From positions 6,414,636 to 6,478,635 of the forward strand of contig OX422183.1 in the NCBI GenBank assembly GCA_949130485.1: a DNA stretch of 64,000 nt, written 5' to 3'. The DNA is from Agelas oroides (taxonomy: Eukaryota > Porifera > Demospongiae > Agelasida > Agelasidae). Under the pieces are notes generated by a model. It saw only the letters and a list, made by a program, of their open reading frames with translations, was not told the origin of the DNA and made no database searches. Of the stretch, positions 248 to 62,959 are shown one piece after another. How positions within the stretch are numbered: the first letter of the stretch is position 1; every line of letters begins with the position of its first letter. The translations under genes and the position numbers were made by a program.

Positions 248-1908
248 CTCCACCAGATAACAAAGGCAGCAATATAGACAACTGCAATCACCAGCACCAT
301 CACACACACAGCAACACCTATCACCAGGTTAAGGACACTGGGTGATCCAGGTTCATCTGCACAATGTTGCGTATAAAACATGTACATATAATTATGTAGT
401 GTTGTTTTAGCAGCTAACAGAGAGCACATTGGGTATGTACAAATGATGTATAATAATTATTAACTGTAACACAGCTTATAAGTTAAACGTTGAGTCAACA
501 AACATTACCTGTGTTTTCCAGACAAATAGATGTTCTATCTGTGCAGAAAAAAAATCAAACTCTCTTCATAATTTATCATCATATCTTATAGTTGAATTCT
601 CATAGAGTCTTCCTGTTTGTGACAGTACATAGGCACCATTAATTACATCATAATGAATGTCAAGCGTATTTGTCAACAAGCATTCGATCAGTATACCTTG
701 CAGTGAAAGGAATACTACACCCTCCATCCTGTGTTCTCCAGCAGTGGCCACCACAGTGATAGTGTAGTTTGTGTTGCACTGGAGGTCAGTGAGAGTGACT
801 TCAGTTGCTGTTGGGTCACTGAGCTGCATGGAGGACTCACCACCTCCCTCAGGATGGTAGGTCACACGGGTGGTGTTGAAGCAGTTGGGAGCTGGGCCTG
901 AACTAGTCCACTGCCATGTTACCCTAACACTTGAGGCATTCATGAGCTTAGCAATGACACCAGTGGGTGTGGGAGGGGCTGGAGTACAGTGTTATAAGAA
1001 ATTACAGTAGACTGTATGAAGGGTTAATAACTTGTACATGTACCTCTTGCTGGTAGAAAAACCATTCTGGGGACACTCCTTGTATCATTTAGACCACCTT
1101 GAGCATAAACCCAAACGGTGTACTCTATGTTGCACTGCAGGTTGGGCAAGGTGGCACTGGTTGCTGTTGTATTGTCCACTGTGTACACCATCAGAGGGTC
1201 TCCCTCAGGTCGGTAGTGAACTGTAACATTGTCAGGCACACCCTGACACGACCACTCCCATGACACTCTGATACTTGCGTTGTCTGCAACAACTTCAGCT
1301 CTCACTCCAAATGGGACTGGTATATCTGTATAATAGCATAACCACCATCAATTTTTGCTGTGATTTAAGTTTCAATTTATTACCTCCAACAAGCAATTCC
1401 ACTTGTGGACTCTTCCATCTACCCATCTGACTTGAACTATCAACTACCACTCGGATGTGGTACTTTGTAGCACACCGGAGACCAGTCTGAATGACCTCGG
1501 TCTCTGATATATTAGTAGTGTTGTATGCTAATGATAAATTTCCTTTTTCACTCAGTTTGAACTTCACCGTCACAGATGCCACACAATTCTTAGATGGTAC
1601 TGTTGTACTCCAGGTCACTCTAACACCAGGGGTTGAGCCACCAACATTCCCAGCACTCATAGTAACATTGCCTAGTAAGGTAGAATTCAGGAACAGTATG
1701 CATAAACATACTGAATGCACGCTCATCACCTCATTTACTCGAACCGAGGCTTTCTGTCTCGCAGGTAGCTACGAAGCAGCGCGGAACAGAAACCTGGGTT
1801 CAAGGGTTTATGTGTAGCCAACTACCTAGTACCTGAGCAACTTTCCCCACCAACTAGCATGCAGCTGCTAAGCACCAACAAGACGAGCGACAACAAACTA
1901 CCGTCCAT
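248..1908 (-). CDS. Receptor M1: signal peptide, three FN3 domains, membrane segment (3' part beyond left edge)
   Basis: Exons in transcript order: 1833-1908 (signal peptide, starts [20 protein letters not shown]), 1384-1671 (FN3-1), 1044-1325 (FN3-2), 697-978 (FN3-3), 509-538 (30-nt microexon, DRTSICLENT), 248-356 (stalk and membrane helix ending AAFVIWWR). All junctions are GT-AG and phase 1, except the last donor, which is phase 2. FN3-1 to FN3-3 each keep the FN3 Trp (VTW, VSW, VTW) and a paired Cys in place of the usual 'L.PgT.Y' turn (LRCATKY, LQCNIEY, LQCNTNY), which suggests an added disulfide. No stop interrupts these exons. The membrane exon resembles that of the PTP genes more than that of M2-M6, so the missing cytoplasmic part could be either a phosphatase or an ITIM-like tail. 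It lies head to head with PTP-A. Product: a single-pass surface receptor; ligand unknown. Confidence 0.8.
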
Positions 1909-2345
1909 GTCAGTCGAATGACAAATTTTCTGGCAGTTTGCGAGGGGACCCAGTACGGAAAATTTAGAGGGGGGCCGGTTGACAGTAGTATACACATTGA
2001 GTTCGGCACATGCATAAGTTAGCAGAGGCGGAGACAGCTACCAAGAAGTGGGGGGGCTCATGTTCTGAATGTTAAGCTGTGGGGGTGTGGAAACGAGATG
2101 ACATTGTATTTCTCTGTACAACTAGTAGAAAAATTGGGGGGCTGAGCCCCCCCAATCTGAAAAGTGGGAGGGCCTAAGCCCCTCCTGCCCCCCCTATATC
2201 TCCGCCCCTGGTTAGTGTTTCAAAATTAGTCCCTCAACCTATAATAAGAAGGTGAACAAGAAAGTGAATCAACCTCTGAGCAGCAGCAATGCCTCACATC
2301 ACAGAAACGTTAAAAGTTCAAAGTGGCTCCGAAACATGATTGATA
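1909..2345 (-). promoter_or_regulatory. Conserved 5' flank of receptor M1
   Basis: The sequence upstream of the M1 start codon is repeated upstream of PTP-A (9717-9985) and PTP-B (about 31300-31508) in matching orientation. It contains the same 'tactgggtcccctcgcaaac' stretch, a 'gttcaccttcttattatagg' stretch and a 'gaggcattgc' stretch. Preservation between genes that differ downstream makes it the best promoter/5' UTR candidate, though a recent duplication would also explain it. The copy here is interrupted by a 188-bp TIR element. Confidence 0.5.
2023..2210. mobile_element. 188-bp MITE with CAGAGGCGGAG ends in the M1 promoter
   Basis: Ends are CAGAGGCGGAG and CTCCGCCCCTG (inverted), flanked by the direct repeat GTTAG at 2018-2022 and 2211-2215. 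The paralogous flank at about 9845 reads straight through with one GTTAG-equivalent, so it is the empty site. The interior is G/C-tract rich and non-coding. Confidence 0.75.
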
Positions 2346-3750: not shown

Positions 3751-3805
3751 TAGTTACGAGAAACAGTAACAGCTCATGCATCCAAAAGATTGCCTACCAT
3801 TTAGT

Positions 3806-9985: not shown

Positions 9986-12900
9986 ATGGACGGTAGTTTG
10001 TTACAGCTCGTTTTGTTGGTGCTCAGCAGCTGCATGCTAGTTGGTGGGGAAAATTGCTCAGGTACTGGGAAGTTGGCTATACATACTAATCGTTGAATCC
10101 AGGTTTCCGTTCCGGATTTTGTCTCGCTGCTTTCGTAGTAGCTAGCTCATCGGTAACGTTAGCAGGCTAGCTACCTGTGAGACAAATCGAGGATAGCTGG
10201 AAAAAAGATGATGAGCGTGCATATTTATTATGTTTATGTATTCTGTTCCTGAATTCTGTCTCGCTAGGCGGAGTTACTATGAGTGCTGAGAGTGTGGGTG
10301 GCCCAACCCCTGGTGTTAGAGTGACCTGGAGTACAACAGTACCACCTGAGTGTGTGGCATCTGTGACGGTGAAGTTCAAACTGAGTGAAATGGGAAATTT
10401 ATCATCTACATACAACACTACTAATATATCAGAGGCCGAGGTCATTCAGACTGGTCTCCGGTGTGCTACAAAGTACTACATCCGAGTGGTAGTTGATAGG
10501 TCAAGTGAGAAGGGTAAATGGAAGAGTCTACAAGAGGAATTTCTTGTTGGAGGTAATAAATTGAAACTTAAATCACAGCAATATTTGATGGTGGTTATGT
10601 TATTCCACAGATATACCAGTCCCATTTGGAGTGAGAGCTGAAGTTGTTGCAGACAACGCAAGTATCAGAGTGTCATGGGAGTGGTCATGTCAGGGTGTGC
10701 CTGACAATGTTACAGTTGACTACCGACCTGAGGGAGGCTCTCTGATGATGTTCACAGTGGACAATACAACAGCAACAAGTGCCACCTTGCGCAACCTCCA
10801 GTGCAACACAGAGTACACCATCTGGGTTCATGCTAGTGATGGTCTAAATGATTCAAGGAGTCTCCCCATAATGGTTTCTCTAGGTAGGGATTTGCAACGT
10901 AACCTTTTTTTTTACAGCAGTTATAAATTCGTACTACTGTACCACCCCAGCTCTGAGGTGACTGCTCAGTTAGGTTTGACAGCATGGGTCGTTCAGCTGT
11001 CAGAGTATAGCATGGCAGTGGAGTAGTTCAGAGCCAGCTTCCCGCTGCCTCAACACCACCCATGTGACCTATCGCAATGTTCTGACTGCTATCTTGCAAT
11101 CCTCGTATCCTAGCTGACGATGATATAAAGTGCTTTTACTTGCACAGGAGCTCCACAGTTGTTCATGGTCTCTCCAGTAAACTCTACTGTCGTAAATGTC
11201 TCCTGGAGTGAGGTTCAGTGCTTCAATGGAAGTGAAACAGTCACCCACTACCTTGTGCAGTATCAGTCAGTGTGTGGTGGTGCTGTGCATAATGTAACAA
11301 CAAATGGTACAGTTCAAGTGGTTTCAGACCTGACACCAAACTATGTGTACACATTTCGAGTGGCTGCAGTTGGAACTGGTAAGAAGATAGGGCCATTCAG
11401 CAGTCCTGTCAATGCATCTCTACCTGGTGAGTGTATAGGAGATATAGCTGATAGTTGAATGCAGTAATGAGTGTTTTGACTGTAATGGTAATTAGTGTAG
11501 CTCAAAATTTGGGAGGTAACATGTACTGTCTATGCACAACATTACACAGATGACCCTGGAGTATCCACTGCCCCCGGAGTATCCACTGCCCCTGGAGCAT
11601 CCACTGCCCCTGCAGTATCCACTGCCCCCGGAGTATCCACTACCCCTGGAGCATCCACTGCCCCTGGAGCATCCACTGCCCCTGGAGCATCCACCTACCC
11701 TGGAGTATCCACCTTCCCTGGAGTATCCACTGCCCCTGGCCAGACTGATAAACCTCTATCATCTAGTAACACTGTCTTGGTGGCAGGTGTTGCTGTGTCT
11801 GTGGTTGTGCTGGTGCTTGCGGCTGTCTGCATTGTTGTCCTGGTTGTCTGGTGCAGGTAGGTATTCATAAATCTGTCACCACAATATCGTTGCTGCTGTA
11901 CAAATATATACATTGAAGTGGAACTTATAACTCATTTTGACTAGAGATCTAATACTAGAAGTGACCACACCTGCATGCTTGCAACACTAACTGCTCCCCT
12001 GAGCTGTAGACTAAGTCATGGCAGCATCTCACGAAACTAGACCAACTCCAGTGTTTCCTTTGCCCCAGCCTTTACCTTCTTCTGCTCCCCTGAGCTGTAG
12101 ACTAAGTCATGGCAGGATCTCACGAAACTAGACCAACTCCAGTGTTTCCTTTGCCCCAGCCTTTACCTTCTTCATTAGAGGATACAATGGATTCAGCACA
12201 TGACAGTACTGCCATTGTATATTTGTCAGGGTCATTATTGTGACAAGGTCTAGCCTCTGCATGGTGAACCTACAAGATGGTCTTGATGATCTAACTGACT
12301 ATTATGTTATAGGGCTATATTTACCTAGGGTGGAGTGTACCTGGGACTAAAATGTGCTGCTTGTGAACTAAAGCTGGGATGATATTTCAATATATTGCAA
12401 TATTCACTGGCATGATATGATATCAATACTGTCTGTTCAGTTATCGATATGGCAGGTCAAGGTTCATGTATGTTTTTAACAAACACACACTCACTATTAC
12501 TGTAACTAGTGTACCTAGTGAGCAACTATTCAGTTCTGCTGGTGATCTTATTTTGGAGAAAAGATCTTGCCTAAAGCCTAAAAACATTAACATGTTGCTC
12601 TTTTTGTATTAAAATCTGCAATTTTGTGTGCAGTTTCTTAAGTTTTCCTTGTTATTGTACTTTGGCCTATGTTCCACTAGTTTACATTTCCTTGTCATTT
12701 GGTGGACTTTACCCTCTCAATATATTGATATATTGCAATAAAGATAGATCAATATATCGATATGGTGAAACATAATATTGTCCCAGCTCTATTGTGAACT
12801 GTAAGCAAATTTTATCAGACTAGGGTTTGGTTGCTTTGACTGGAAAGAGGAACTGTGAGGAAGGTAATAGACTTTAACAAACACAATTGGTGTCACTGTG

Positions 12901-15900
12901 ACTATATGACATTTTGTAATGCAGCTGATAGTTCTTGATTCTATTCCACTAGTGGTTGAGATAGCTCTATTAAAGACATCCCCACTTTAATTTAAAAAAT
13001 CTGTAAGCACATCATTTGTGTCAATTTCTCAGACACAGACAAGTTAACGGAAAGAATGCTACAGTGAAGTTAGCTGATATGGCAGATAGTGACCGTGTTG
13101 ACAGTGAAGAAGAACAGGATGCAGAGACATCCGTTGACAATGTCTGCTATGAGAAGATTAAAATTGCATATAAGAGAGGAAGTGGAGAGCAGGACACGGG
13201 CACATCTGTTGACAGTACCTGTTATGAGAAACTTCAAAGTAGGTCCTTAAACAATGTTTGTAAAAGTGTTGTAGTAACTAATCAATCATTACACACACAG
13301 CGTCCCCACCAACCATTATTGACTACCAGCGGGAGGTGCAGTGTTTGGAGGGAGAACAGGTTAGCCTGATTGTGAAAGCTACTGGCATTCCTGCCCCCAC
13401 TTTCACTTGGTTCTTCAATGGGAGGAAGTTGGAGGATGACTACTCCACTGAACTTGGGAAGGATGGGTCACTGGTGCTTGTGTCTGTGGAGGTAAAGCAT
13501 GCCGGCACTTACACCTTCAGTGTCAGCAACAGGGTGGGCAGTGTGGAGGGGTGCACCAAGCTGGTGGTCCACACTGAGGATGAGGAACATGCCAATGTAC
13601 CCAGAGTTGAGAGCAACCCAGTCACTAGGGAGAAGTTTGGGGAGTACGTCTCCAGCTTACATGCTCACAACAACAGTGCCTTCCTAGTACAATTCCAGGT
13701 ATTAGACCACATATATACAGCTAGAACCTGCATACTGTAGAGGATAATTATGGCAGTGAATGTTTCTCCCACATCTCAGACTTTGCCCTCTGGGGAGGAA
13801 GGCCACCAGACAACTATTGGCAAGACTCCAGCTAACAGGCTCCTGAACCGATTTAAGAACATTGCAGCCTGTAAGCCAAGTTTACATGTTACAATGTCCT
13901 GTGCATTGTTATTTGAAAAGTATAGTGAAAGATATGTTTCTCTTATAATCAGCTTTTTACTTCCCTTATTATTCTGTTCCCCTATGCTCTTTATCTGTGC
14001 TTTGAAATTACTCCCAATGTATGATCATGCATATTTTACCACTGAATTTCAGTTACAGGTGATCTGTTAGATACTTCATGGCTGGTAAACAGAAAGCCAG
14101 GAAGTCTAAACCACAAAGATGTTTAAGCACTTTTGACACATGCTTCTATTACTCTGAATGATACTTCTAAAGTTGTGTATTTTTCTTAAGAACAATGTGT
14201 ATATGCTTACTTGATTTTAGTCAGGTGATCTCTAAAATGTTAGTGGCCAATGCAATGAAAGCATGCAGACTGCAATTTATTACACAATGAGCTGCAAATG
14301 AGACTACTGCTGATTATTTCCACAGCTCTGGATATTGCACAATTTAGGGTATTATTCCAGAACATAATTTTTCCTTTTACACTATTCACAAAATTGTTTT
14401 CTCTTGTGATAGATGATGATCATCGTGTTGCTCTGAAGTCCATTTCTGATGGTGTGGACTGTGAACATGACTACATCAATGCCACCTACATAGATGTAAG
14501 GCTTCTTGAAAATGCACTGCAAATATTTCACTGGTGAAATCAGCACCAGCTATACTTAGTTATATGTTACTTTGATTAAGAGGTTAAGGTAGACAGGCTA
14601 TTAATTTATCTCATTCTTTTTCACCCAGGGGTATTCACAAGACAAGAAGTACATTGCCACCCAGGGTGAGCTACGAACAACTCTCATCTCAATTCTAAGA
14701 TCAGTGTAGCATTCATTGATTGCAAAGCTCTAAACTTTGTAGGTCCACTCCCAAACACTACTACTGACTTCTGGTGGCTGATGTGGCAGGAGCGGGTCCA
14801 CATTGTTGCCATGGTAACCAATACTGTGGAGAGGGGGCAGCAGAAGTGTGAGCACTACTGGCCAGATGAGGGGACTAAGGAATATGGTCCATTCAAAGTC
14901 ATGCTCGCAGACCAGCAGGTCTTTGCAGACTACACCATCAGGCAGCTTTTTCTCTCTGTGAGTTTGAGGAACTAATGTTATCAAGAATTTATAGCCATGT
15001 ACTGCTAGGAATCTGGTATCCTCATTCCCAGGCATCTCCCATCTTCTAATTGCTTGACCCTTTGTGTTTTGACTTTGCTTTGCCAAAGTATCTGGTGGTT
15101 GCATCAGCAGTATAGCTTTTGATTTGAGACAGTTGCTGAGTTCCTACTATACACTATTCTCACTGTGTAGTTTTGATGATATTGAGTTGCAACACTTAAT
15201 TCTACTTCCTATCACTCTCTATACAGTGTGACAAGGTTGGAGGGAACCAACTGAAGGTGACACAGTTCCACTTTACCTCCTGGCCAGACCATGGTGTTCC
15301 AGAGTATGCTGGTCCAATCCTCAACTACCTCTGTCGAATGAAGGCCCAGATGAAGCTCTCCAGGGGACCTACACTGGTGCACTGCAGGTCAGCTAGGGTT
15401 GGAAATGTTGCAATTGTGCTGTGTGAGTACATGTGTACTTTGGCTGTTCAGAGGACAGAAATAAGAGTTCCATCATCTCTCCATGCAGTGCTGGTGTGGG
15501 GAGGACAGGCACACTGATTGCCATTGACATGGCTCTGGAGCAGGCTGCCCGGGAGAGTGTAGTGGACATCCCTGCCATTGTCACCACGATGAGGAGGCAG
15601 CGCATGAAGATGGTCCAGAACTCTGTAAGAGAAGCATGCAACTGACACACATTTTACTGCAAGTGCACTACAAGCTTCACATTGTTAAACTCATTTTGCA
15701 ATGTTGCACTCTGCTGCGTCACTGCCTATGTATTATGTATTATGTTAGTGACTGACAGTGAGGTGGCAAAGTATGAATTTATAAGCATAACAGATATAGC
15801 TGCCATCTCATTCTGTGGCATTTATGCATCAAGAGTAGTTGCCTCGTGCCAAGTTGCTCGGCTATTAGGGAAAAGGTAGTACCTCTGGTTGGAGAGGCTA

Positions 15901-18900: not shown

Positions 18901-18920
18901 ACACATGTACACACACACAT

Positions 18921-18958
<38 letters not shown>

Positions 18959-18981
18959 CACACACACACACACACACACTG

Positions 18982-19028
<47 letters not shown>

Positions 19029-38973: not shown

Positions 38974-38974
<1 letters not shown>

Positions 38975-39210
38975 GACACAGTGAGCCGGTGTGGGGTGTT
39001 CTGTTCATTCATCAATGCCACTGAGTGTTGCAAGACAGAGGGCATTGTGGATGTGTTCCAGGTAGTGAAGGCACTTCGCATCCAGAAGCCAGGCAGTGTG
39101 CTCACTGTGGTAAGTATGAGTAACCTGCTTGCCTGTTATATCCAACTAAAATGATCGTACATACGTAACTAGTAATCTGTGCAAGGAGCAGGACAGTTGT
39201 ACCCAAGTAG

Positions 39211-39500: not shown

Positions 39501-39720
39501 TCTGATTACCATACTTCTAAATCATACCACTGCTCTATTCTGCTTTCTGCATGAAGATGATCCTGCACTCAAAATTGTTCGTGTGTACATTGAGATCATT
39601 CACTGTATTGTAGAAACTTAAATGTAATACTGTCGTTTACTGCAGGAACAATACCATTTCATATTTGATCTGATGCTGTTGTTCCTCGAGTCATTCAACA
39701 TTTACTCAAATTTCAAGTAA

Positions 39721-46633: not shown

Positions 46634-49600
46634 TCACTGTGGGCATTCATAAATGTGGGGTTCCTCCCTTTCACCACCACCACGGTCAATCTGTCCATAG
46701 GCTGAACACTCCTTCAACAGAATCTCAGTGGTCACAGCAGTGGCCCTGCAGTGACATTGTGATAATTTGCTATCTCATGCTCAATACCAGTAAGGTCTCA
46801 CAGCAAGCAATCAGTGTTTTAATTTGTTAGCAAAATAAACCATAATTATGTAAGTGGTTACATTAGCTAGTGGAGCATAGCAAATGCCTTATAAACAGTA
46901 AACAGGTTAGCAATTATAGTCTTGCTCAAATGTCTGATGTTATTGCTGTGTATACACTGAGCACAGTGAAAACACAACACAGTTAACTTGCAAACTACAA
47001 ACATGCAACAATAACATTATTCATCCTCTCACCTCTGTGTTTGGCACTTCATCCTGGCTATGGACCTGCACACAGAAAAAGGAGGTCATTGCAACATTGA
47101 CTGTACTCCTACACAAATATGACTCCAGTATAAATTCCAAGAATCATATAGACTAACAGTGGTAGCACGAGTATAACTCAATGTTTTACTAAATTCTGCT
47201 CCCCATTTTTGTGCTATGAATGGAGGAATGACGTAAATTAATTTATCAGGAATCATTTGTTTGCACCAGTGTTGTACATGTTGGAGCTTACCTCCGCTGG
47301 TGCCAGATGACTGCAGACTGTACAACAGCCACCACCAGGAGAACCAACACTGCTGTAACTGCAACTCCAGCCACTGCTGAAGTAGATGAACACTGAATGG
47401 GTACTTCTGGCAAGATGTGTGGAGTGCCTGCAGGTAAAATTCATTTCTGCTGTAACAAACATTGGATCAAGGGCTATGCTCAACTGCACAACATCATATG
47501 TAGATGAAACAAATTACACAAACTAAATTCTGCAACAAAACTACCTGAGAATTTTACCTGAGTCTTCTGGACACATGGATGCTGTACCTGTGTAGTTAAA
47601 GCATGCATTAACCACAATGTCATGCAGACTTCCACATTGCTAGCTATAGTTCACCTTGCAATGTTACACCTTCCCTCCTGTGTTCTCCAGCAGTGGCCAC
47701 CACAGTGATGGCGTAGCTTGTGCTGCACTGGAGGTCAGTGAGAGTGGCCTCAGTTGCTGCTGGGTCACTGAGCTGCAGGGAGGACTCACCACCTCCCTCA
47801 GGATGGTAGGTCACAGTGGTGGTGTTGAAGCAGCTGGGAGCTGGGCCTAAACTAGTCCACCGCCATGCTACCCTGATACTTAAGGCATTCATGAAGTGAA
47901 CAGTGACCTCAATGGGAGTGGGAGGGGCTGAAATAATACAGTTGAACAAATACAATAAACTGTATGACAAGTTATACAACATAAACATACCTCTTGCTGG
48001 TAGATTAACCATTCTGGGGAGACTCCTTGAATTATTTAGACCACCTGTAGCATAAACCCAGATGGTGTACTCTGTGTCACACTGAAGGTTGAGCAAGGTG
48101 GCACTGGTTGCTGTTGTATTGTCCACTGTGTGCATCATCAGAGAGCCTCCCTCAGGTTGGTAGTGAACTCTAACAAGATCAAGTAAACCCTGACATGACC
48201 ACTTCCATGACACTCCGATACTTGTGTTGTCTGCAGTGACTTCAGCTCTCACTCTAACTGGAATTGGTATTGCTGTGCAATAACATAACTACATTAAGAT
48301 AATGTGACCAAAATCTCACACATACACACAATTGCTTTACCTCCAACAAGTACTTGCGCTGTGCTATGCAGTAAAGCAAATTCACCTAGGTCTCTTGCTT
48401 CTCCAGAAACTAACACAGTGATAGAGTAGGTAGTACACTGGAGACCAGTCTGAATGATCTCAGTCTGTGATGTATTGGTAGTTGTATTTGTTGCTACTAA
48501 AATCCCAGATCTATTTCTGAAGTTCACCCTCACAGCTGTCACACACTCAGGTGGTATTGTAGTGCTCCAGGTCACTCTAGCACCAGGGGTTGAGCCACCG
48601 ACACTCTCAGTACTCACAGTAACAGTGGAGAGGAAAAATTGAGCAGCTGCACGAATAATCCAGCAAATTAATCCGGAAATTAATATAAATGCGAACATTG
48701 CAAGGCATTTTACACATGCATTATTTAAAAATGGTATTCATTTTATGGATACTATTACCAGTATATATCAGTAGTTAATTCGCATTATTTAAATAGCATT
48801 ATTATGCAAAACCCTTACATTCAACTGATTCACATTACTTTAACCGCACATTAATTTCCGGAATTATGGTATAACACTGTGTCTATAGAGAATACAGAAT
48901 TGAATTTCAGCGGCTATACACAGCAATGATAAGCTCCAATAAAAATATAACATAGACCAATCAACAGAGTGCTAAAAGACTTACATGATGATTTTATCAG
49001 CAAAATGTTTAGGCACTGTACCTAGTAAAATTCACTTCGTATTATTTTAAAGTACCGGTACCGATCAGAGGAGTGAGTGACTCCCCGGAGAGAATAACTC
49101 CCCCCTGGAGAAAAAGACTCCCCTAGCGGACGCTCGTCCCGAAATGGCAGTACTTGGCAGGAAATTCAAACTCATCAGTATAACGATCAATGGTGCTATA
49201 TAATGGCAAGTAAAATGTGTTTTATAGCATTCATCAGTCATGGAAGAGCTTGAAGTAGTTGAGAACTATTGTATGCTGCACACAAGGTGCTCAGTGTAGA
49301 GTTTCCCAATCTCGAAGGCTTACAAAGCACTCTATACTGGTTGAAACTGGAGGATTTTTTCCTATCAATGGCACAATAGTACAGATTCTGTTTGAGCGGG
49401 AAAGGAATCACTGGGTGACGACAAGCTTACATGATGGTGAAGTGAGGCTATATGACAGCTGTTTTCATGGCCACAAACTAAGTGCAAGCATCGAAGAGCA
49501 GCTGATACGCATCTACAAAACATCAGTTCAAGGTCGCATTCTACCAGTTTCAGTGATACCAGTACAGCAGCAAACCGGGAGTGTGGACTGTGGACTCACG

Positions 49601-52600
49601 GCTCTGTTCCACACACAACCACTCTTCAGCTCCTTTGGATACTGGAGCGTAGTACCAACGATATATTGCATATTCTAGTTTAAGCCCAGCCCAGCACTCA
49701 AATCACCTGGCCACGGTCACCAACTAGGCTTGGCATACGATCGCAAGACCTGGGCCTACTCAACAAATATAGTCTTGGCCACTGTGGCCTTTCTGCTGCT
49801 TCTAGACACAAGCTTGCTTTCACAAGGAGGCATTACGCACTACTCACAGCAACTGACACTATAGCACTCTACTAAACTCCTTCTTTGCAAAAAAAAAAAG
49901 TCGATCTAAGCTTATCTTCAAAGTTAAAGTTCCAACCACAACATGAGGGGTTCCACCAGGCCACATTTAACTAACTTAATTATAAATGCATTATTGGATG
50001 CCAATGCCGACAGGAAACTGGGAAATTCCCCAATTTTACAGACAGTGAACGGTTGAAGACTCCCAAAACCAAGTGTTTGCTAAAAGTTTATGAAGGCGAG
50101 GAGTCTATCAGCTTGGATTCCAGGTTTGCCGACCTTGAAAATCCAGGGTTGAGTACCACCTTAAGCATGTATTTACGAGCGTCCTTTCAGTGCAAAGTAC
50201 TTATGCACGCATTCCACATTCATCTGCTGGCCATCTATGAACAAATGGAGTACATAGCTGCAACCAAATTGGCTTGAACAGTGATGTTCAGTGGAAGCAA
50301 GGCTAGTGGAACACTTACAAATGGTAGGGCTAGACGGTGAGTGGACTTTGTGGCCATCCCAGTTTTCTTCTCAGACAGATATTGAACATTGCAAAGTGGT
50401 AGTAGTATTCAAGGTCACAGACACCTGAAAAATGAGATCTGATATACATTTTGCAAAATTCAAAACAAAGCCGTAGTGTGATTCTCACAGTGGTACAATT
50501 TGGCCAACATTCAGAATCCAGTTTCCAATGTAACTGTTGACCACACTGAGAGTGGCTTCTTGTGGCCAATCTGTCTCCAATGTTGTAATGACTGTGATGT
50601 TAACTTTCCAGATCATTTTTTACAAAACAGCCAACAGAATAGAAAATGGAAATCTGGTGGCTATTTTCTATTTTCCATATCTCATTCACAAAACAGCCAT
50701 GTGATTGAAAAATGGAAATCTGGAGGAAGTTTTCTATTTTCCACATCTCAGGCACATCATTGTCCTTATGGTAAAACCTGCAAAACCAGTTGGGTGAGCA
50801 CATGCTCTCACAATGAGGTCACACATAAGTATTACGAAAGGCCAACCAGTTGGGTGAGTACATGATGTGTGAACTTAATCTGTAGCTAGTAGGAAAATGG
50901 AGGTCTATAGTGCTGAAATTAGACCTATGGTGGAAGATAGTTAGCTATACACATGAACAGATCAGTGGATTTCTGTAGCAACAAAACTATGAAGCATGTG
51001 GGTTTTCAGCCCGAAGTGTAAGAAAGTTTTGCTCTCCGCATTGTAATCACTACCACAGTAACCTATCTGTTCAGGAGTTATAGACAGAGTTGTTCATAAT
51101 GGAGTAATTACAGTTGGACATAGTTATGGCAGGCGCACAATGCATGGATTGCTGGCATCCAGTGGGGTACGTTATTAAACAAAGAAAGTGCATTATGAAC
51201 TAAACGCTTTACCTGTTGTTGAATGCTATCTATTTCAGTTTCATGTTTCAGAACATCGTATCTGCTGAATCACTATCCCAAGTGGCTCCAATTCAACGTC
51301 AACACAGCACCCACAAACTAATGAATCCTATTCCATATATGGTAACTGCTCGTGGCGACAAAATTGCTTCTAGATTAGAATGAAAAGGTCATAAAATATG
51401 GAATGACCCATGGGTTGCTATAGATGGATACTCACGTAAAATAGTTGGATTTAGTACGCTTCCAGTAAAAAAATGCCATAGCAATATATGACTGCCTCTT
51501 CTGACCACTGTTGCTAAAGGAAGGGCTGTGGGTCCAAGTAAAAGTTGATCATGGGTGTGAGTTTAGTCTCATGCTTAGTGTTCAGCAGGGCTTGGCAGGT
51601 TTCTGTGTTAGACAAGACAAAGTTCCTTTCCTACAGACAATTTCACAAGAAACGTATTTGGCCTGAAGTAAATCAGAGGATCAATTACCCACTGAAGCAT
51701 CTGTTAATACAAATGGAAGTGAACCAGATCATTGATATGAGAGATGAAACTGTGAAATTCTGCTTTTCCTGGGTAACAATACTTATGTGTGACCTCATTG
51801 TGAGAGCATGTGCTCACCCAACTGGTTTGGCAGGTTTTACCATAAGGTCAATGATGTGCCTGAGATATGAAAACTTCCTCAGGATTTCTATTCTTCAATC
51901 TCTTGGCTGTTTTGTAAATGAGATATGGAAAATAGAAAATAGCCACTAGATTTCCATTTTCTATTCTGTTGGCTGTTTTTGTAAAAAATGATCTGGAAAG
52001 TTGTCATTACAACATTGGAGACAGATTGGCCACAAGAAGCCACTCTCAGTGTGGTCATCAACAGTTACGTTGCAAACTGGATTCTGAATGTTGGCCAAAT
52101 TGTACCACTGTGAGAATCACACTACGGCTTTGTTTTGAATTTTGCAAAATGTATTTCAGATCTCATTTTTCAGGTGTCTGTGACCTTGAATACTACTACC
52201 ACTTTGCAATGTTCAATACCTGTCTGAGAAGAAAACTGGGATGGCCACAAAGTCCACTCACCCTAGACGGTGTATGAAATCTACGGGCCTGTAATATATC
52301 TATTGGAGTCATCCACTTTAGGGGAATCATTCACTTCAGGGGAGTCATTCACTTCAGGGCAGTCATTCACTTCTAGAAGCCAGTGACTTCAAGGGAGTCA
52401 TTGGCTCCTAGGAGTGAATGACTGAGAGTCACTGGCTCCTAAGAGTGAGTGACTGGGGAGTTATTGACAGGGTGAGTCACTCACTCCTATGACGCGTTGT
52501 AACAACACAGCCTAACAAAGGGGCTATCATTTCTCGCTCTTTTAGCGCTCAATCCAGTGATTATAAAATTGGAGTTTGCTGTCAGTAGTTACTCTAGACA

Positions 52601-52756
52601 CAGCTAGCGAATTAATATAAGTAGGCCTATATATACGCATCACCATCTCAAACGATCATGTAGCTAGCTCGTACCTGATAGGGAGCAATTCTGCCCTCCG
52701 ACTAGCATGCAGTTGCTGAGTACCAACAAGACGAGCGACAACAATCCACCGTCCAT
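46634..52756 (-). CDS. Receptor M4: three FN3 domains, membrane helix, ITIM-like tail (about 417 aa)
   Basis: The most complete ITIM-type gene. Exons: 52675-52756 signal peptide (MDGGLLSLVLLVLSNCMLVG), 48341-48646 FN3-1, 47991-48272 FN3-2, 47655-47927 FN3-3, 47558-47587 microexon (TASMCPEDS), 47292-47427 stalk/membrane (AVAGVAVTAVLVLLVVAVV), 47033-47065 juxtamembrane microexon (SIARMKCQTQ), 46634-46745 tail (KECSAYGQIDRGGGEREEPH then IYECPQ, stop). Sum 1254 nt = 417 aa plus stop; all junctions are in phase. Each FN3 has the Trp and Cys pattern of the family. Intron 1 is about 4 kb because a 3.4-kb element sits in it; linking the signal exon to FN3-1 across that element is my inference, supported by strand, order and phase. 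Expected to be a glycosylated single-pass surface receptor with one ITIM-like and one C-terminal Tyr motif. Confidence 0.82.
48647..49068. other. AT-rich part of M4 intron 1
   Basis: No feature recognised; 'ttaatttccgg' occurs in both orientations (about 48668-48680 and 48849-48862). Confidence 0.35.
49069..52488 (+). mobile_element. 3.4-kb TIR element with Ulp1-like protease and integrase-like transposase, broken
   Basis: Ends AGGAGTGAGTGACTC at 49069 and the inverse at 52474-52488, with 'gagtcattcactt'-type subterminal repeats at the right. 49259-49678 encodes a C48/Ulp1-like cysteine protease piece (NHWV, YDS, VQQQ, VDCGLTAL). About 51110-51780 holds traces of a DDE/integrase-like domain ('GYSYGRRTMHGLLAS', 'AIDGYSRKIVGF', 'VDHG.EF', 'WPEVNQRINYPLK'). 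Two inverted 500-bp arms (50331-50838, 51774-52266) flank it. Protease plus integrase-like transposase suggests a Ginger- or KDZ-like DNA transposon; a Polinton relation is not excluded. Broken in several places; moderate age. Confidence 0.6.
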
Positions 52757-53736: not shown

Positions 53737-54259
53737 GTTGATGGACTGCGAGGGACCCAGTACACTAAATTGACGCGAGGGGGCACAGCAACGTAACAGT
53801 ATAGTCCTTTCCTCGTGATTCGATCCCCACAGCCTGCAGGGCCTTTGTGCATCAAGTATATATACCAGGTACAATTGTAGGAATGCCATATGGATTATAC
53901 TCATATGAAATGCTAAACTTGCAGTGTGACACTGTACTATTTATAGTCCAGTTCCAGACGGAAAATTGTATGAATATGCAAACCATCTTTCCTGCACCGC
54001 CCCAGTTTATGGGCTGCAAAAGCAAGTAAACGTGACAACCAATCAAATCAAAAAACTGGAAGTCTGCCAGTCTAGTAGACCACCAGTGGGTACCGGTATA
54101 TACAGCTACAATAGATTTGTATATGTCAATGTCACAGTGTTTTCTATACATAAAGCAGATTTCTTGCTATATGCGGTCACTGTGGGATTTCATAAATGCA
54201 GTTCTCCTCCTTCTTATCACCACCATTCTGGTCAATCTGTCCGTATGCTGAACACTCCT

Positions 54260-54840
54260 TTAAGGTGGCAGGGAACCCTGTGTTTTCAAGGTCAACAAAC
54301 CTGGAATCCAAGCTGATAGAATTCTTTGTCTTTGTAAACTTTAAGCGCACAGTCCGCTTCATCCGCTCACGGTCTGTAAAATTGGGGATTTTCCCCATTT
54401 CCTGTCGGCATTGACATCCAATAATCAGTTTATAATTAAGTTAGTTAAGATGTGGCCTGGCGGTACCCTTCATGTGGTGGTCGGAACTTTGAAGGTAAGC
54501 TTAGATCGACTTAAAAAAAAAAGAAAAAAAAAAAAAGAAGGAGTTTAGTAGAGTGCTGAAGTGTCAGTAGCTGTGAGTAGTGTGAAGTGCCTGCTTGTGA
54601 AAGCAAGCTTGTGTCTAGAAGCAGCAGAAAGGCCACAGTGGCCAAGACTGTACTCATTGGGCAGGCCCAGGTCTTGCGATCGTATGCCAAGCCTAGTAGG
54701 TGATCGTGGCCCGGTGCTTCGAGTGCTGGGCTGGGCTTTAACTAGAATGCGCAATATATCATTGGTGCTACGTTGCCATTGACAGGAAAGCTGAACGGTG
54801 TTTGTGTGTGGAACAGAACCGTGAGTTGTTTAGCGACATA
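54260..54840 (-). mobile_element. Second, partial copy of the protease-bearing element
   Basis: Reverse complement of about 49560-50160: the same 'gcttggattccaggtttg', 'ccaagcctagtaggtgatcg' and poly-A blocks, and the end of the protease region. Fossil fragment; it interrupts the M5 tail exon. Confidence 0.65.
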
Positions 54841-54844
54841 AGGG

Positions 54845-56214
54845 GGAGAGGTGGGGCTAGTAATGCTTACTTGCACTCGTGAATGAGCCCCTCCCGTAGA
54901 CAAGCTGTGAATTTTGTGAAATGTGCATTCATTTTGGTGCAGTCAAAGTTGTCCATTCCAGGAGTAGTGACAAACATGAGTCTAGCCTGACTTTGGGAGT
55001 AGCTCTGAACAAAAGCTGGCACAGAATGATTTGAGATACATTGGTGGTTAGGACACTACCTACAGTGAGCATGTAGATGCATCCATCGAGTGGCAATTTT
55101 GGCTCATGAATATATTAATAAGCTACTAAAACCCATTTTTAAAATTAGGCAATGCAAGATTGCCCTAAACCAAACCCTAACCCTGAAACTAGGAGCAACA
55201 CTGGTCCTGACTTGTAACCCAGGTTTATGTTTTCGTAACCTCCGCCGAGTGACTTCCCCCGCCACGTTAAAGAATCTCAGAGTAATAATTATAAGTTGCA
55301 TAACAGCCAAAAAATTATCAATCTTTACAGTAACCACAGCGTTCATCTTTTATATTGCAAGCAATGAACGCTCCAGTGACCTTAACCTTGTACCTGTGCA
55401 CCAAAGCTGGGAATGAGGTTACCTGTAGAGTGGCTTAATTCTAGTGTCAATGAGCCTTCCAAAAAGAAGAAGAAAAAAAAGATTGCTAGCTGTACAACAT
55501 TTTGTGTATTGATGGTACTACTTGATGACTGGAATTCATTTCTTGGTGATCAGTAGCCAGAATTCACCTAAACTGGATGTGTACATCTCTCCACCATGTG
55601 ATCACAATTAAACATTGACCTGAATGGCACTATATTGCCCAGAACACACTAATTTGCATGTAGATTTTATAGATTGACTCTGAGTAATTAATGGTATTTG
55701 TACAGTGATAGAATACTTGAGCTAACAGACACACAATTGAGTGTAATTTGTAACCTTCACCTGATTGAATTCTATGAGTGAGACACTACATAGCATGTTA
55801 GTCTGGTCCCCACACCTACTGCTGAAGGTCTGGGGACGAGGCTACTAGCATGTTTATTGTTTATTATAGTGGTATTCACTATAACTATGGCCCCTGTGCA
55901 TGGTGAGAACTAGCTGAAAGGAAACAAACTACTCCACAAGTTGCTGTTTTAATTGTGCAGTTAAGTTCTGTACTCATTCTGTCGTTAAACTAGACTGACT
56001 GTAGACCTTGTGTAAATTTAGAGACTGTGTGCTGACAAAAGAACCACTTAAATCAGCCACTTTCAGTGACTTTCATGATGTGTAGGACTCATTAAACCAC
56101 TCACCATTAATGCACTCACCATTCAGATGCCACTGTTTGCGTATGCACTGAAAAAACAAAACAAACAAAAAACAGCTGCAAACTTAAATCTAAATTGTAG
56201 CAACAAAGTTTTCT
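54845..56214. other. Non-coding stretch
   Basis: No gene recognised; one micro-hairpin at about 55800-55845 and A-rich runs. Confidence 0.4.
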
Positions 56215-57737
56215 TCTCTTCTGTGCTTGGCTGTTCATCCTAGCTATGGACCTGTACACAAAGAAAGGTACAGAAAGTTCTCGCTATATTTTGAATGGGC
56301 TCCTATACACATGCAAAAGTACATGCTCAGATCATAAACCAGGTGTGATATGTTAGCATCAGCGCAACACAATTAATGCTCTATGTATACTGTCTAGTTT
56401 TGTACCACTGGTGACAGACTATCACTAAGCTGAAGCTTACCTCTGCAGGTGCCAGATGACTGCAGACTGTACAACAGCCACCACCAGGAGTGGGTTACCA
56501 TACTGAAATCATAACACCCGGGTTTTAAGCTTACCAATTAGCACTTCAGTAGTACAGCCACAGGTGTACTATAACACTCATTATTACAATCCAACTGTCT
56601 AGGGGCATCTCCTACACTCACCAGACAGAGATAGATTGGCAAGTTTGGTGAATGGCCCTATACTCTGACTAGCTCCAACTGCAGCCACTTGAAATGTATA
56701 CACCTGAAGATGTCTGAACTGGACCACTGGTTGTTACATTCGTCACAGCACCACCACACATGGTCTGATACTGCACAAGGTAGTGGGTGACTACTCCACT
56801 TCCATTGAAACAATGAATCTCACTCCAGGAGACAGTTACAGTGGTGGAGTTTACTGGAGTGACTACCACCTGTGGAGCTCCTGTACAAGTAAAAAGGATT
56901 CTATCACAGTAGCTCAACATTATGTTGCACCTGTAGGCTGGGACCTGGATGTCAGGCTGAAACTACCTCACACCATGCTGCATATTAAGCACAAAGCAAA
57001 GCAAGGCCACGGAGTTTACTGGAGTGATCGCCATCAAATGTGGACTCCCTAGATGCAAAGAGGATCAGGAGAGTAATAGCTTGTGGCTGATCAGCAATGC
57101 ATACATGCAAAACAAACACAAAAATAGAATCAAATTCCTAATACCTCCAAGTCTGAAAATGGGCCAGGTCTCTTCACATCAGCTGCTGCCACTTGGAAAG
57201 TAGCTATATTCCATGTTTGAAGTCAGGCCTGACACATTAACAGCCTGAACTAGACCATTTGTTGTTATGATCTTGGAAGGCAGTGATAACTATCTGCTAT
57301 ATTCTATCACAATCTGCCATGGTTCGAACATACTCTAATCATGTTCAAGACAAAGCAGCTACCAATGAGCCTTTTTCAAATTGATTTGTTGCCTTTCTGG
57401 AGAAGTTGCAGAATTCTAGTAAGATCGTGCAAGCTGAATTGGTGCTAGAATCCATTTCAAAGTATATTGTTGGTCAGTATAATCTTTCACATATGGACAA
57501 GCCTTGTCCCCAGGCCCCTCCCCCCTGAAGCCTGGTACTCACTGTTTACACATATACAAAATATTATCATAAAAGGCTTTGTGCACTTACCGGTCAACTG
57601 GATATGAAAAAAATGAATGCAGTTTTAATTGGCCAACTCAAAAATGCAATTAATGAGCTGCACACCATAATATCATGGTATTCTGAGCTTGTCCTATAAA
57701 CCCTAACTGGGGCCCTAAACAATGCACGCAGGCTTTA

Positions 57738-58002: not shown

Positions 58003-58407
58003 TTAGTCACCACCACACTCTTGGGACACACATGCAGTATTTGCTAGTACTATAATCACTTCAAACTGTTGGCTAAACAACCCAAAGCAAACCATGTAAA
58101 GTACATATGCAGTAGTAGGTATAGGGCTATCAGAGTATGTGTGCTATGAAGCCAAAGTTATATAATCCAGTCACTGTGGGCGTTCATAAATGTGGGGCTC
58201 CTCTATCTCACCATCACCACGGTCAATCTGTCCATAGGCTGAACATTCCTTCAAAGGAATCTCAGTGGTCACAGCAGTGGCCCTACAGTGACATTGTGAT
58301 AATTTACTATCTCATGCCCAATTCTAGTAAGGTCTCACAGCAAGCAATCAGTGTTTTACAAAATACACCAGATGTAAGTGGTTACATTAGCTAGCAGAGC
58401 CAGGTAT

Positions 58408-58722
58408 GTTCGGATGCCAAAATTGGCACATTTTGGAAACCGTTTTCTACCACTTATGGTGGATTGTGACATGCCAATTCTGGTTTGATTCCAAAATTGG
58501 CACAAGATGTATTCTCTGTTCTACAGAGTGACTCATGTGCCATATCTGCCAACTTTGGTTCGGTTCCTAAATTGGCACAAAATGTATCCTTGGCAACTTT
58601 CCAAAATTGGCACAAAATGTATCCTCGGCAGCTTTCCAAAATTGGCACAAAATGCATTCTCTGTTCTACAGAGTGACTCATGTGCCATATCTGCCAACTT
58701 TGGTTCAGTTCCAAAATTGAAA
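58408..58722. repeat. Nested tandem repeat 'ccaaaattggcacaaaatg'
   Basis: A unit containing 'ctctgttctacagagtgact' and 'gccatatctgccaactttgg' occurs twice, separated by two 34-bp subunits ending 'ccaaaattggcacaaaatgt'. Lies in an M6 intron. Confidence 0.75.
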
Positions 58723-59309
58723 ACACAGTCAACTTGCAAACTAACTCAGCACAAACATGCAATTATTCTTCCTGTTACCTCTGTGTTTGGCACTTCATCC
58801 TGGCTATGGACCTGCACACAGAAAAAGGAAGTCGCTGCAATATCATTGTCTGTACTCCTACACAAATACGAGTCCAGTATAAATTGTGTCTCTATTTATC
58901 CACTCAGGCGGTTTTTGCGACACACATTGGCCTAGAAACACATAAGACTATACAGGAATGCAGAACACGCTTGGATGCTGCTAGCTCAGCATTTGCCTGC
59001 ATCCATCATATTAGAACCATATGAGCAGTAGTATAATTATTATTACACTAGCAAAAATTGTTGCGTTGGTACAGACATTTGAGATGTTCTCCTCTTAGTT
59101 ATACAAGACTTAAAAAACATTAAAATGTAAAAAGATGTAGGGATGGCATGCCAAAAAGTAGGCAAACAAGATAGGGATAATGCATGAAAGCAAAGGTCAA
59201 CATATTGGCAAAGCGCCATCCCTACATCTTTTTCACACTACAGTTAGACAGTGCATGGGGGTCTTCCTAAAACGTACCACAAGTTCACAACCTTCACTGG
59301 CAGTTCATG

Positions 59310-61079
59310 GCCGTAGCCTTGTTCTCAGGCCACTTCCTCCTCCCACGTGCTCTGGGAAGAAGGCTAGTATGACCTTGGTAGCATTATGTTATACGGAACC
59401 TCTTCAACAACTTAAGCAGTTAGTTGGAGTAGACTGCAGACTAGCCTCGTCCCCAGGCCTGTTCGACCTGGGAACGAGGCTAACTGCAGACTTGTGATAG
59501 TGTCTTTAAAGTATATGGCATGGTTCTAGCCTCGTCCCCAGGCCCTTTTCTTCTCCCACATGCCGGCTCATAACGAGGCTAATATGATCTAGCAGCATTG
59601 CATCAGCTGTAGTGTGAAAAAGATGTAGGGATGGGGCTTTGCCAATATGTTGACCTTTGTTTTCATGCATTATCCCTATCTTGTTTGCCTACTTTTTGGC
59701 ATGCCATCCCTACATCTTTTTACATTTTAATGTTTTTTAAGTCTTGTTTCTGTACTTTTTTGATGTTATTCTCAGTTACAGTTAGACCAAGTGTAACCGC
59801 AACACCAGAACTTTTGAAACGGCGTTGACAGTTTAGTAGTGGTTCCAGGCATGTAATAATTATGTGTAATACCGGTATAGCAGCTAGAACCTGATGAAGG
59901 GCCAACCACTCTCCCTACCAAACTTTGTGAAACAAATTTCATGATTCAGTTGTCATGACGACTGACCAGCTGCAGCACAGAAAACTATCAATGATACTGA
60001 CAACTGACCATCCTAGCTTTACAGTTCACTAAAGCTGTGAGTAGGCTATTTTAGTGTATAGCTACAAGCAGGTAGCGCCTTACCTACGTTAGCGATTCCG
60101 GAAGATTGACATTTTTGAAAGAAACAGCTCGTTCTCAGGAATGGCTTGTGCTACAAGCGACCAACGCACATCAAACGACGTCCCATTGGCTGCTCTTTGC
60201 GAAAAACTGTGTGTCGTCCAAAAGTAGTTGGCTCTAGTACCTGCTGTTTTTCATTTTCGTTCAATTGAAATTTGTATGGGAAAGATTAAAAACGCGAGTA
60301 ACTTTCGCATCAACGGAGTTCGCAACGACCAACGGTGATCGCTCGACAGAGCTCACTGAGAGCTTTCTTTTAGTGTATAGATATTTGGATTTTGACTATG
60401 ACTAGTGCCTGCAGTTTTTGACCGAAGATTTGACCGTCCGGAATCGCTACCTACGTGGTGTTCATAAGCCTTGCCCAATGCCGCGGGGGGAACCCGGGAA
60501 AGACTGTGCCAGCCACGCGTACTGCCCGCTGGCCATTTCGCTTGTGTATATACTAGTCTCGCTTCCAGACCGATGACCGTGGTCTTTGGTCTGGGAACGA
60601 GACTTCGTGTGCGCATGCGTACAAAATTAGAAAATGGCGTCCTAAGCAACGGACAGCAGCCTCAGAGTGTTGTGAATGGCTTTTGTTGACCAGGGTGAAT
60701 TTGAAGCTATGAAGTTGCTGAGTGGTTGGGAAGCTGCACGCTGTGATGAGCATCCGTTTCGTGCTAAAATCAAGGTGAGTGCTTGAACCGTTTTCGAGTT
60801 ATCGTCGTTTGACAAGTGGTCTGAACAAAGAAGAAAGAAAGAAAGAATACGAAAAATGGCACTTTTGCTACCGCACACTTTTGCGTTTAGCTGTCTTCCG
60901 CGTGGGTTTTGGGCAACTATATGAGTCTTGCTGATCACAAAGGCACTCAAAGAGGAAGCCTGGGCGCTTAAATAAGCTTTTAGCGCGTTTGTGGTGAAGT
61001 TATACGGCTTTTGCTTAAGTATTGCATATATTGCGCGTCGGCGCCATCCCTACATAGAGAGTCTACCGACTCTCTGATA
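59310..61079. mobile_element. Right copy of the ATGTAGGGATGG element
   Basis: Reverse complement of 28329-29730, almost identical apart from a 360-bp MITE (60090-60449) and a few small indels. Inserted in an M6 intron. Confidence 0.6.
60090..60449. mobile_element. 360-bp MITE with TAGCGATTCCGG ends
   Basis: Perfect 12-bp TIRs TAGCGATTCCGG / CCGGAATCGCTA, flanked by CCTACGT (60083-60089, 60450-60456; 8 bp if the shared A is counted). The left copy at about 28950 has the intact empty site. The target size fits hAT-like elements. Confidence 0.85.
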
Positions 61080-62959
61080 TGTGTACAGCCCTAAGTTGAT
61101 AGCAAACCATGGAAGTCTCTCTCCTCCCCATAAGTGGTTTGTAGCTTGGTAGTAACCAGATAATACAGTTAATAATGGTTTGAGTATACAATGAAAGCAC
61201 TGGCAACTATTTGCCTAAGTAATCTCTACATATATGCAAGAAGAAAGTTTTTCCCATTACCTCTGTGTTTGGCTCTTTATCCTAGCTATGGACCTGTGCA
61301 CAGAGAGAGAAAACCACTGCCATAAGTTCAGGATAGAACTCCCCGTCCTTTCATATGTAATCATGATAGTGCAGTACATGCTCTGAAATAATGCAATGTG
61401 TTTACACTGGTATTACATAGTAATGCTCTTCAGTTTTGTGTCAGATGACAAACTATCATTGTAAGCCAAGGCTTTTACCTCCTCAAGTGCCAGATGACTG
61501 CAGACTGTACAACAGCCACCACCAGGAGAACCAACATTGCTGTAACTATAACTCCCACCACTGCTGAAGTAGATGAACACTGAGTGGCTACTTCAGATGA
61601 GATATGTGGAGTGTCTGCAGGTAAAATTCAGTACAAATACTGGACCACGGTCCAATGCTTATAGCTAGTTTTGCCACTGCAGCACAACAACTGTAAAATT
61701 GTTTCTCCTGGACGCATTCCAGCCCAAACCACCCAATCATGTATGACTTTTACATAGACCATATAACTCTATTTTCATAAAGTTGCCATTTATAAGCTGA
61801 TATATGCTGTACCTGTTTAATCCTGTTACTGGATCTGGTCAGCTTCACATACACCTGAGCAACTAGCATTGTACTGCCTATTATGGGCCAAATAGGCACT
61901 ATGTTAGTACCTGTGCAACCATAACACTCATTACCCCATCCACTCACCTGCCAGCCCAGGATTACTGGATGGTTGAGTACAAGGGACACTGGATGCTCCA
62001 GGGTCATCTGAACAAGATTTTGAAACAACACATTGCATTCCATGTTGTCAAGTTCAATCTTAACACCCATTACTCCATCTACTCACCTGCTGCCAGGCCA
62101 GGATTACTGGATGGTTGAGTACCAGGGTCACTGGATGCTCCAGGGTCATCTGAACAATGTTCTGAAGCTTACCTTGTTGTCAAGTTCTGGTGGCAAGACT
62201 ATACCAAGAGCGTTACCTGAGACTTCCTGACACATGGATGGTATACCTGTGCAGATAAAACACTTGTTAATTACATGCAGACTTCCAGGTATGTAACTAT
62301 TATACCTTGTAGTGGAAGGAATATACACCTTCTCTCAGGAGAACTGTCCTTGCTACACTCTCCCTCCTGTGCTCTCCAGCAGTGGCCACCACAGTGATGG
62401 TGTAGTTTGTGTTGCACTGGAGGTCAGTGAGAGTAGCCTCAGTTGCTGCTGGGTCACTGAGCTGCAGGGAGGACTTACCACCTCCCTCAGGATGGTAGGT
62501 TACAGTGGTGGTGTTGAGGCAACTGGGAGCTGGATCTGAACTACTCCACTGCCATGCCAACCCAACACTTGAGGCACTTGTGAACTGAGCAGTGACCACC
62601 ATTTGAGTGGGAGTAGGAGGGGCTGGGGTGGGACAGTGGTATATATACCGTTAACTACAGTAAACTGTGTAAGGTTACATCACAAGTGCATACCTCTTGC
62701 TGGTAGAAGACAGATGTTTTGCCAGTTCTACCACGCCTGGCTTCAACCCAGACGGTACTTAGTGTCACACTGGAGGTTGGGCAAGGTGGCACTGGTTGCT
62801 GTTGTATTGTCCACTGTGAACCTCATCAGAGATCCTTCTTCTGAACTCTAACAAGGTCTACACACATGAGCACACCCTGACGTGACCACTCCCATGACAC
62901 TCTGATACTTGTGTTGTCAGCAGCAACATCAGCTCTTACTCCAAATGGGACTGGTATAT

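Follow-up and report, generated by a model that had tools for sequence, protein, structure and literature searches.

A duplicated receptor cluster in the demosponge Agelas oroides with probable phosphatase and tyrosine-tail arms

A 64-kb stretch of the genome of the sponge Agelas oroides (the window; C1:6414636-6478635 in a single 259.3-Mb assembly) is probably part of a demosponge paired-receptor complex that would combine a phosphatase arm with a tyrosine-tail arm. Its genes, predicted to encode type I membrane receptors, fall into two classes that have a common signal exon and a common ectodomain of fibronectin type III (FN3) domains and differ in their insides. The first class consists of receptor protein tyrosine phosphatases (RPTPs), in which a juxtamembrane tyrosine segment is followed by an intracellular immunoglobulin (Ig) domain and tandem protein tyrosine phosphatase (PTP) domains, D1 with its catalytic residues and D2 without them. 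The second class ends in a tail of about 48 residues with two conserved tyrosines. The paired architecture is well supported, while opposed signalling by the two arms and a part in allorecognition are what we infer.

Results

Two receptor classes with a common ectodomain

Self-comparison of the window returned many long duplicate copies, about 68-99% identical, that span both exons and introns. Signal exons were located at six loci (M1 at 1908, A at 9986, M2 at 27368, B at 31509, M3 at 45578 and M4 at 52756). An earlier note on this DNA had listed at least six loci with signal and FN3 exons; six signal exons were indeed found, but the locus that it placed at 62955 (M5) begins in the second FN3 domain, and a signal exon looked for there was not found. 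The note had also assigned an Ig domain and tandem PTP domains to the loci at 9986 and 31509, and the first of these, gene A, is intact: its 21 exons, with AG/GT at all internal splice sites, encode 1157 amino acids without an internal stop. Gene B at 31509, on the other hand, is dead: 11 nt are deleted both from the FN3-d exon and from the exon that encodes the HC motif, the NRF exon contains an in-frame stop, and exon 14 is absent.

The Pfam domains of gene A are fn3 (two stretches), I-set and two Y_phosphatase (PF00102) stretches, with the Ig domain after the transmembrane (TM) segment; FN3-1 lies below the Pfam threshold, and calling it an FN3 domain rests on pattern and position. D1 keeps its catalytic motifs, including WPDHGVP, and the active site of D2 is degenerate. 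Gene A is thus predicted to be an intact sponge-type RPTP with an intracellular Ig domain. The query used for its homologue, Pfam and PDB searches contained 27 surplus residues at exon 16.

For M1, the earlier note had placed the inside beyond the edge, and this is where we found it: an Ig exon at C1:6413468-6413866 on the minus strand and the PTP exons, all just outside the window. The TM exon of M1 (356-248) and the intron that follows it resemble those of A and B more than those of M2. M1 is therefore an RPTP on the minus strand, and strand does not define class, contrary to the division drawn in the note. The short tyrosine-tail receptors that it described on the minus strand include two intact genes, M2 (404 amino acids) and M4 (407 amino acids), each with a signal, three FN3 domains, TM segment and tail, but those at 45578 and 62955 (M3 and M5) are broken. 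M3, M5 and the relic M6 are all disrupted or incomplete, and the signal exon of M3 has a GC donor instead of GT.

The cluster around the window covers about 590 kb and extends past both window edges. Searching the genome with the tail peptide gave 42 matches at E<=1e-3, and 50 when the limit was E<=10. Of the 42, 33 fall within 6.404-6.948 Mb of C1, 14 of them on the minus and 19 on the plus strand, with some partial and two containing a stop; the remainder are on C17 (5), C7 (2), C18 (1) and C12 (1). The intracellular-Ig exon gave 49 matches in total, 15 of them strong and on C1 at 6.413-6.990 Mb (two broken, one on the minus strand). C18 has five strong matches and a sixth that is weaker, and those on other sequences are weaker too. 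FN3-2 gave at least 150 scored matches. In the 200 kb that we examined locus by locus, assigning loci by coordinate ranges and excluding fragments, there were 18 receptor loci, 6 RPTP and 12 short-tail. The related ectodomains with two kinds of inside, the clustering, the fast duplication and the dead copies to which the earlier note had drawn attention are therefore borne out genome-wide.

Two other regions were noted. At C17:7.206-7.226 Mb the tail exon has five matches and FN3-2 several, and the Ig-exon search gave no intracellular-Ig match in that region; this is possibly a short-tail-only cluster. At C12:4.87-5.07 Mb, a distinct array of PTP exon matches with similar scores spreads over about 190 kb.

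Receptors of opposite class match their neighbours

Judged from their alignments, members of opposite class within the cluster are kept alike in sequence. The clearest case is a head-to-head pair, in which the short-tail locus S9 starts at 6507701 on the minus strand and the RPTP locus R4 at 6507796 on the plus strand, with 94 bp between the start codons. S9 maps onto the exons of M4 with no frameshift, and R4 maps onto those of gene A, including the Ig and tandem PTP exons after the TM segment; both signal exons have CAG/GTAC donors. The two loci are linked by an inverted repeat of 1407 bp (95.3% identity), in which the identical bases are 305/312 in FN3-1, 419/419 in intron 2, 291/291 in FN3-2, 53/62 in intron 3 and 234/271 in FN3-c. 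A tract of 710 identical bp thus ends abruptly and gives way to 86% identity in FN3-c, as recent gene conversion would leave it.

Such a pair, and the copy numbers of the cluster, might also come from an assembly artefact, either a fold-back or unmerged haplotypes, given that a single assembly was used and that the 710-bp tract is fully identical. We consider this very improbable. Identity falls from 100% to 86% within the arms at intron 3 and FN3-c, FN3-1 has 7 differences, and beyond the arms S9 and R4 differ in their TM segments and insides, which is not expected of a fold-back. In addition, the same cross-class match is found in a tandem short-tail and RPTP pair at 6720/6725 kb, which are reciprocal best matches (0.117, or 0.123 in a second alignment, with the next best at 0.216 or more), and both classes occur independently in the sponge Ephydatia.

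Similar matches were found across the cluster. S12 and R5, about 55 kb apart, are mutually closest in FN3-1 (0.063). Among the 16 loci with a scorable FN3-1 (loci without one were excluded), the nearest short-class FN3-1 was in the adjacent scored locus for five of the six RPTPs, M1 being the exception, and shuffling loci within classes reached 5 adjacent best matches once in 100000 trials, with a mean of 0.80. In the window, the FN3-1 of M2 groups with those of A, B and M1 (p-distance about 0.10), apart from M3 and M4 (0.24-0.29), whose common branch has a support of 100 when the signal exon, FN3-1 and intron 2 are combined; the FN3-2 of M2 is equally near to M4 (0.108) and B (0.109). The sharing of FN3 exons described in the earlier note consequently goes further, in that neighbouring RPTP and short-tail loci match best in FN3-1 and S9 and R4 are identical in FN3-2.

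Ectodomains vary while insides are mostly constrained

The ratio of nonsynonymous to synonymous substitution rates (dN/dS, by NG86) was 0.56-2.91 over 19 FN3 pairs, namely 0.81-2.91 for FN3-1 (10 pairs), 0.56-1.20 for FN3-2 (6) and 0.66-1.53 for FN3-c (3). For the tail it was 0.15-0.29 in five of six pairs and 0.73 in the sixth, for the TM exon 0.52-0.82 (3 pairs), for the Ig exon of A and B 0.19 and for their PTP exons 0.35 and 0.77. The FN3 exons therefore evolve at a dN/dS of about 1, in contrast to mostly constrained insides. Exon and intron divergence are about equal among A, B, M1 and M2.

To locate the variation we used 64 FN3-2 domains from 62 of the 85 homologues of M2, all 85 being metagenome open reading frames (ORFs), with FN3 types assigned separately and strand limits taken from an AlphaFold2 model (pLDDT 82.8). 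The FG loop was the most variable element (2.01 bits), with 1.77 in the G strand and 1.54 in the BC loop, against a mean of 1.08; it ranked second of 73 ten-residue windows, and 1 of 20000 random site sets was as high.

Dead copies (B, M3, M5 and M6) and an FN3 dN/dS near 1 would also be seen if a lineage-specific duplication of RPTPs were shedding truncated, drifting copies that acquire a short 3' end, in which case the pairing would have no common function. This seems to us improbable, as the tail, which is conserved with Ephydatia, is for the most part under purifying selection, intact genes exist in both classes, 33 tail matches lie in one cluster and FN3-1 is matched between adjacent loci. 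It is somewhat unlikely, too, that these are LAR-like receptors of development or general adhesion with no immune or allorecognition part. Many adhesion RPTPs have FN3 ectodomains, and among solved structures in PDB the intracellular part of gene A is nearest, by sequence, to the tandem domains of LAR and PTPRS; the size of the cluster, its rapid turnover, the loop-focused diversity and the PTP-less partner class would, in our judgement, nevertheless be unusual for developmental RPTPs.

Both classes are present in Ephydatia

Among the best 120 of 2236 matches to gene A, the top named ones were RPTPs of Geodia barretti, Ephydatia muelleri, Halichondria panicea and Amphimedon. In nine homologous RPTPs the Ig domain is ahead of the PTP domains in all, and after the TM segment where one is present; in P0001 and P0002 a TM segment was looked for and none was found. 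P0002 (Geodia barretti), with an Ig domain, tandem PTP domains and the N-terminus MGNKSSGG, could be a soluble or lipid-anchored form. Of 31 RPTP matches analysed, 20 could be parsed, and a juxtamembrane YxxI/L/V was present in 12 of these.

The earlier note had proposed a search of other sponges, and Ephydatia proved to have both classes with a common ectodomain. An Ephydatia RPTP ectodomain used as the query found 47 proteins, which include six without PTP domains that are 88-91% identical to it along 91-95% of its length. A single 8.23-Mb record carries members of both classes, with close gene numbers such as Em0011g928 (an RPTP) and g930 (PTP-less), and a few relatives are on other scaffolds. 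A tail resembling KSCDAYGEIRAGGQDCYEVVEHK is at the end of 10 of the 27 Ephydatia proteins examined; P0220, P0244 and P0240 are tail variants, and the rest have no tail or are short models. The match between the Ephydatia tail and those of the window was reached or exceeded by 3 of 20000 shuffles for M2 and by 0 of 20000 for M4. In a set of 76 proteins (P0001-P0029 and P0206-P0252), FN3-d, which lies near the membrane, matched 48 (best 1e-12); FN3-e (44), FN3-2 (24) and FN3-c (4) matched more weakly, and FN3-1 had no match. A further Ephydatia protein, P0223 (Em0011g1115), is PTP-less with a longer tail that contains TYETV, TYAVV and TYLNI, and may represent a third class.

The tyrosine motifs of the short tail

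The tails of M2 and M4 contain KECSAYGQID and a C-terminal IYEHPQ or IYECPQ (overall, SAYGQI...IYExPQ), and both SAYGQI and the terminal stop are kept in all six tail exons of the window. The consensus of the immunoreceptor tyrosine-based inhibitory motif (ITIM) is [SIVL]xYxx[ILV], and the pattern of the corresponding activation motif (ITAM) is YxxI/L-x6-12-YxxI/L. SAYGQI fits the ITIM consensus in all six window tails, and the juxtamembrane VCYEKI of A and VCYDKI/ICYEKI of R4 also fit it; an ITIM-like motif, or one like the related switch motif (ITSM), is likewise found in 8 of the 20 parsed sponge RPTPs. The ITIM is not kept in the homologous Ephydatia tail, which reads DAYGEI with Asp at -2; its YGEI-x7-YEVV is close to the ITAM pattern, and the second motif of the window tail is YExP. 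The short tail may thus be ITAM-like in Ephydatia and ITIM-like in Agelas, and its sense may be activating or inhibitory.

These motifs bear on a further alternative, that both arms are inhibitory or dampening, with an ITIM-type tail recruiting SH2 phosphatases and the RPTP acting directly, so that the pair would tune the strength of a signal and not its sign. The SxYxxI of all six window tails and the juxtamembrane motifs speak for it, but the Ephydatia tail (DxYxxI, YxxI-x7-YxxV) has no ITIM and a chance motif is not rare, since 1823 of 20000 shuffled M2 tails contained an ITIM/ITSM-like one. On balance we regard it as unlikely.

Coordinates and other features of the window

The exons and loci are listed in Table 1. 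Between the M2 tail and the isolated tail exons there are reverse transcriptase ORFs (RVT_1, Pfam) of an element resembling a long interspersed nuclear element (LINE-like), at 23594-22206 on the minus strand, and an ORF with a zinc knuckle and a gag-type aspartic protease is close to the right window edge (63231-63998, plus strand). Intron 1 of M4 contains an inverted repeat of about 500 bp (50336-50833 / 52262-51778, 93% identical) that is foldback- or DNA-transposon-like. We also noted a 24-nt array of 10 copies at 42647-42888, which keeps the reading frame of the M3 linker and encodes EVPTQWTS repeats, and a 31-bp tandem array of 24.7 copies (97% matches) at 6706-7470.

Table 1. Positions in the window of the receptor loci and of the gene A exons.
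Feature	Position	Strand	Remarks
Gene A signal exon	9986..10061	+	phase-1 donor
Gene A FN3-1 exon	10268..10552	+	
Gene A FN3-2 exon	10611..10883	+	
Gene A FN3-d exon	11148..11426	+	SWxEVxC type; strongest Ephydatia match of the FN3s
Gene A STAPG linker and TM segment	11550..11856	+	18-nt array at 11554-11739
Gene A juxtamembrane exon	13039..13238	+	NVCYEKI and STCYEKL
Gene A intracellular Ig (I-set) exon	13301..13698	+	
Gene A PTP D1 exons	13780..15624	+	
Gene A D1 end and PTP D2 exons	16429..19520	+	D2 catalytic Cys lost; exon 16 = 17293-17357
M1, RPTP class	248..1908	-	crosses window edge; exons 1908-1833, 1671-1384, 1325-1044, 978-697; TM exon 356-248
B, RPTP-class pseudogene	31509..39720	+	
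M2, intact short-tail receptor (predicted)	23948..27368	-	exons 27368-27284, 27044-26754, 26683-26405, 26325-26044
M2 inside exons		-	TM 25547-25412; tail 25231-25202 and 24059-23948
M4, intact short-tail receptor (predicted)	46634..52756	-	exons 52756-52675, 48646-48341, 48272-47991, 47927-47655
M4 inside exons		-	TM 47427-47292; tail 47065-47033 and 46745-46634
M3, short-tail class	41812..45578	-	FN3-1 and FN3-c disrupted; tail exon intact at 41923-41812
M5, short-tail class, broken	58171..62957	-	tail exon 58282-58171
M6, short-tail relic	54177..56894	-	FN3-d, partial TM, tail exon
Isolated short-tail exon pair	21141..21707	-	past LINE-like insert; tail copy 21248-21141

Discussion

A paired-receptor complex with matched ectodomains is the reading that we prefer, and several observations weigh against it. 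The adjacency set includes three loci from two hand-picked stretches, A, B and M1 all have M2 as their closest match, S12 and R5 are some 55 kb apart, and a head-to-head pair with identical FN3-2 was seen once. Given the chosen stretches, the exclusion of loci without FN3-1 and the M2 common to A, B and M1, adjacency is a strong lead that yields no clean p-value. To the right of 6.6 Mb, the listed cluster matches of both classes are all on the plus strand. Exchange between the classes was tested for in Ephydatia and not seen: the short class forms one clade in an ectodomain tree of 27 rows, so there is no sign of continuing inter-class exchange in that sponge. As for selection, an FN3 dN/dS near 1 may reflect either relaxed constraint or an averaging out of diversifying selection; one A/B PTP exon is at 0.77, Fisher tests of FN3 against inside gave p values of 0.058, 0.027 and 0.002, the last with pseudogene B included, and variability continues beyond the FG loop into the G strand.

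If a paired-receptor complex is what these genes encode, both arms would recognise identical or related ligands with the BC/FG loop end of their FN3 domains. A Src-type kinase would phosphorylate the short tail, where SH2 proteins could dock, and the RPTP, on co-engagement, would strip phosphate from the tail or from its effectors, such that the ratio of the two arms may determine the reaction to an adjoining cell or to a microbe. As the ectodomains change, duplication and gene conversion would preserve the match between them. A more specific proposal, possible but one that we put forward tentatively, is an ancient demosponge complex serving as a self/non-self locus, in which a transmembrane PTP would restrain and an ITAM-like tail with two tyrosines would drive, behind a common, fast-changing FN3 face for the ligand that is matched by conversion, and in which some pairs would share a bidirectional promoter.

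The RPTP half is of a sponge kind that is already known, and its pairing with a short-tail class may be the new part. The Ig-containing RPTPs of Geodia, Ephydatia, Amphimedon and Halichondria have the same order of TM segment, Ig domain and tandem PTP, with NRF and WPD in D1, and their ectodomains are varied. One from Geodia cydonium was reportedly described in 2001, and to our knowledge these proteins are known as single receptors. A short-tail partner with a common ectodomain is not mentioned in the source names among the matches listed, and no description of such a sponge cluster or pairing was found in open-access titles and abstracts, where subscription papers are mostly absent.

Vertebrate paired receptors such as KIR, PILR, SIRP and Ly49 also have a common ectodomain with differing insides, a gene cluster, sequence exchange and dead copies. 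In the sponge, however, the ectodomain is made of FN3 and not of Ig or lectin domains and one arm is itself a phosphatase, and we claim no homology. The nearest idea, in the portions of the literature available to us, is found in the fester and fester co-receptor (FcoR) genes of Botryllus, neighbouring pairs at the allorecognition locus with ITIM, hemITAM and YxxI/L/V motifs (PMC12065747). Their ectodomains, by contrast, are of Ig and sushi domains, the available text describes no PTP arm, and they have a genetic role in fusion (PMC12065747). The Alr genes of Hydractinia, 41 of them according to an invertebrate Ig superfamily review, resemble the sponge cluster as clustered receptors with tyrosine motifs in their tails, but differ from it in their V-set and I-set Ig ectodomains, and no PTP partner is described in the available portions of the sources (PMC11999971, PMC12065747). 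A study of immunity in an Antarctic sponge tallies FN3 and Ig-like domains, and the word phosphatase is absent from its available text; a review of marine innate immunity mentions ITIM/ITAM for C-type lectins.

One review terms the mechanisms of invertebrate allorecognition a complete mystery (PMC12065747). The mapped cluster, with its matched phosphatase and tyrosine-tail arms, supplies named candidate exons for the recognition of self and of microbes in sponges. If the proposal is true, a kinase/phosphatase paired-receptor logic would exist near the base of the animals, made of FN3 and RPTP parts and not of Ig and lectin parts.

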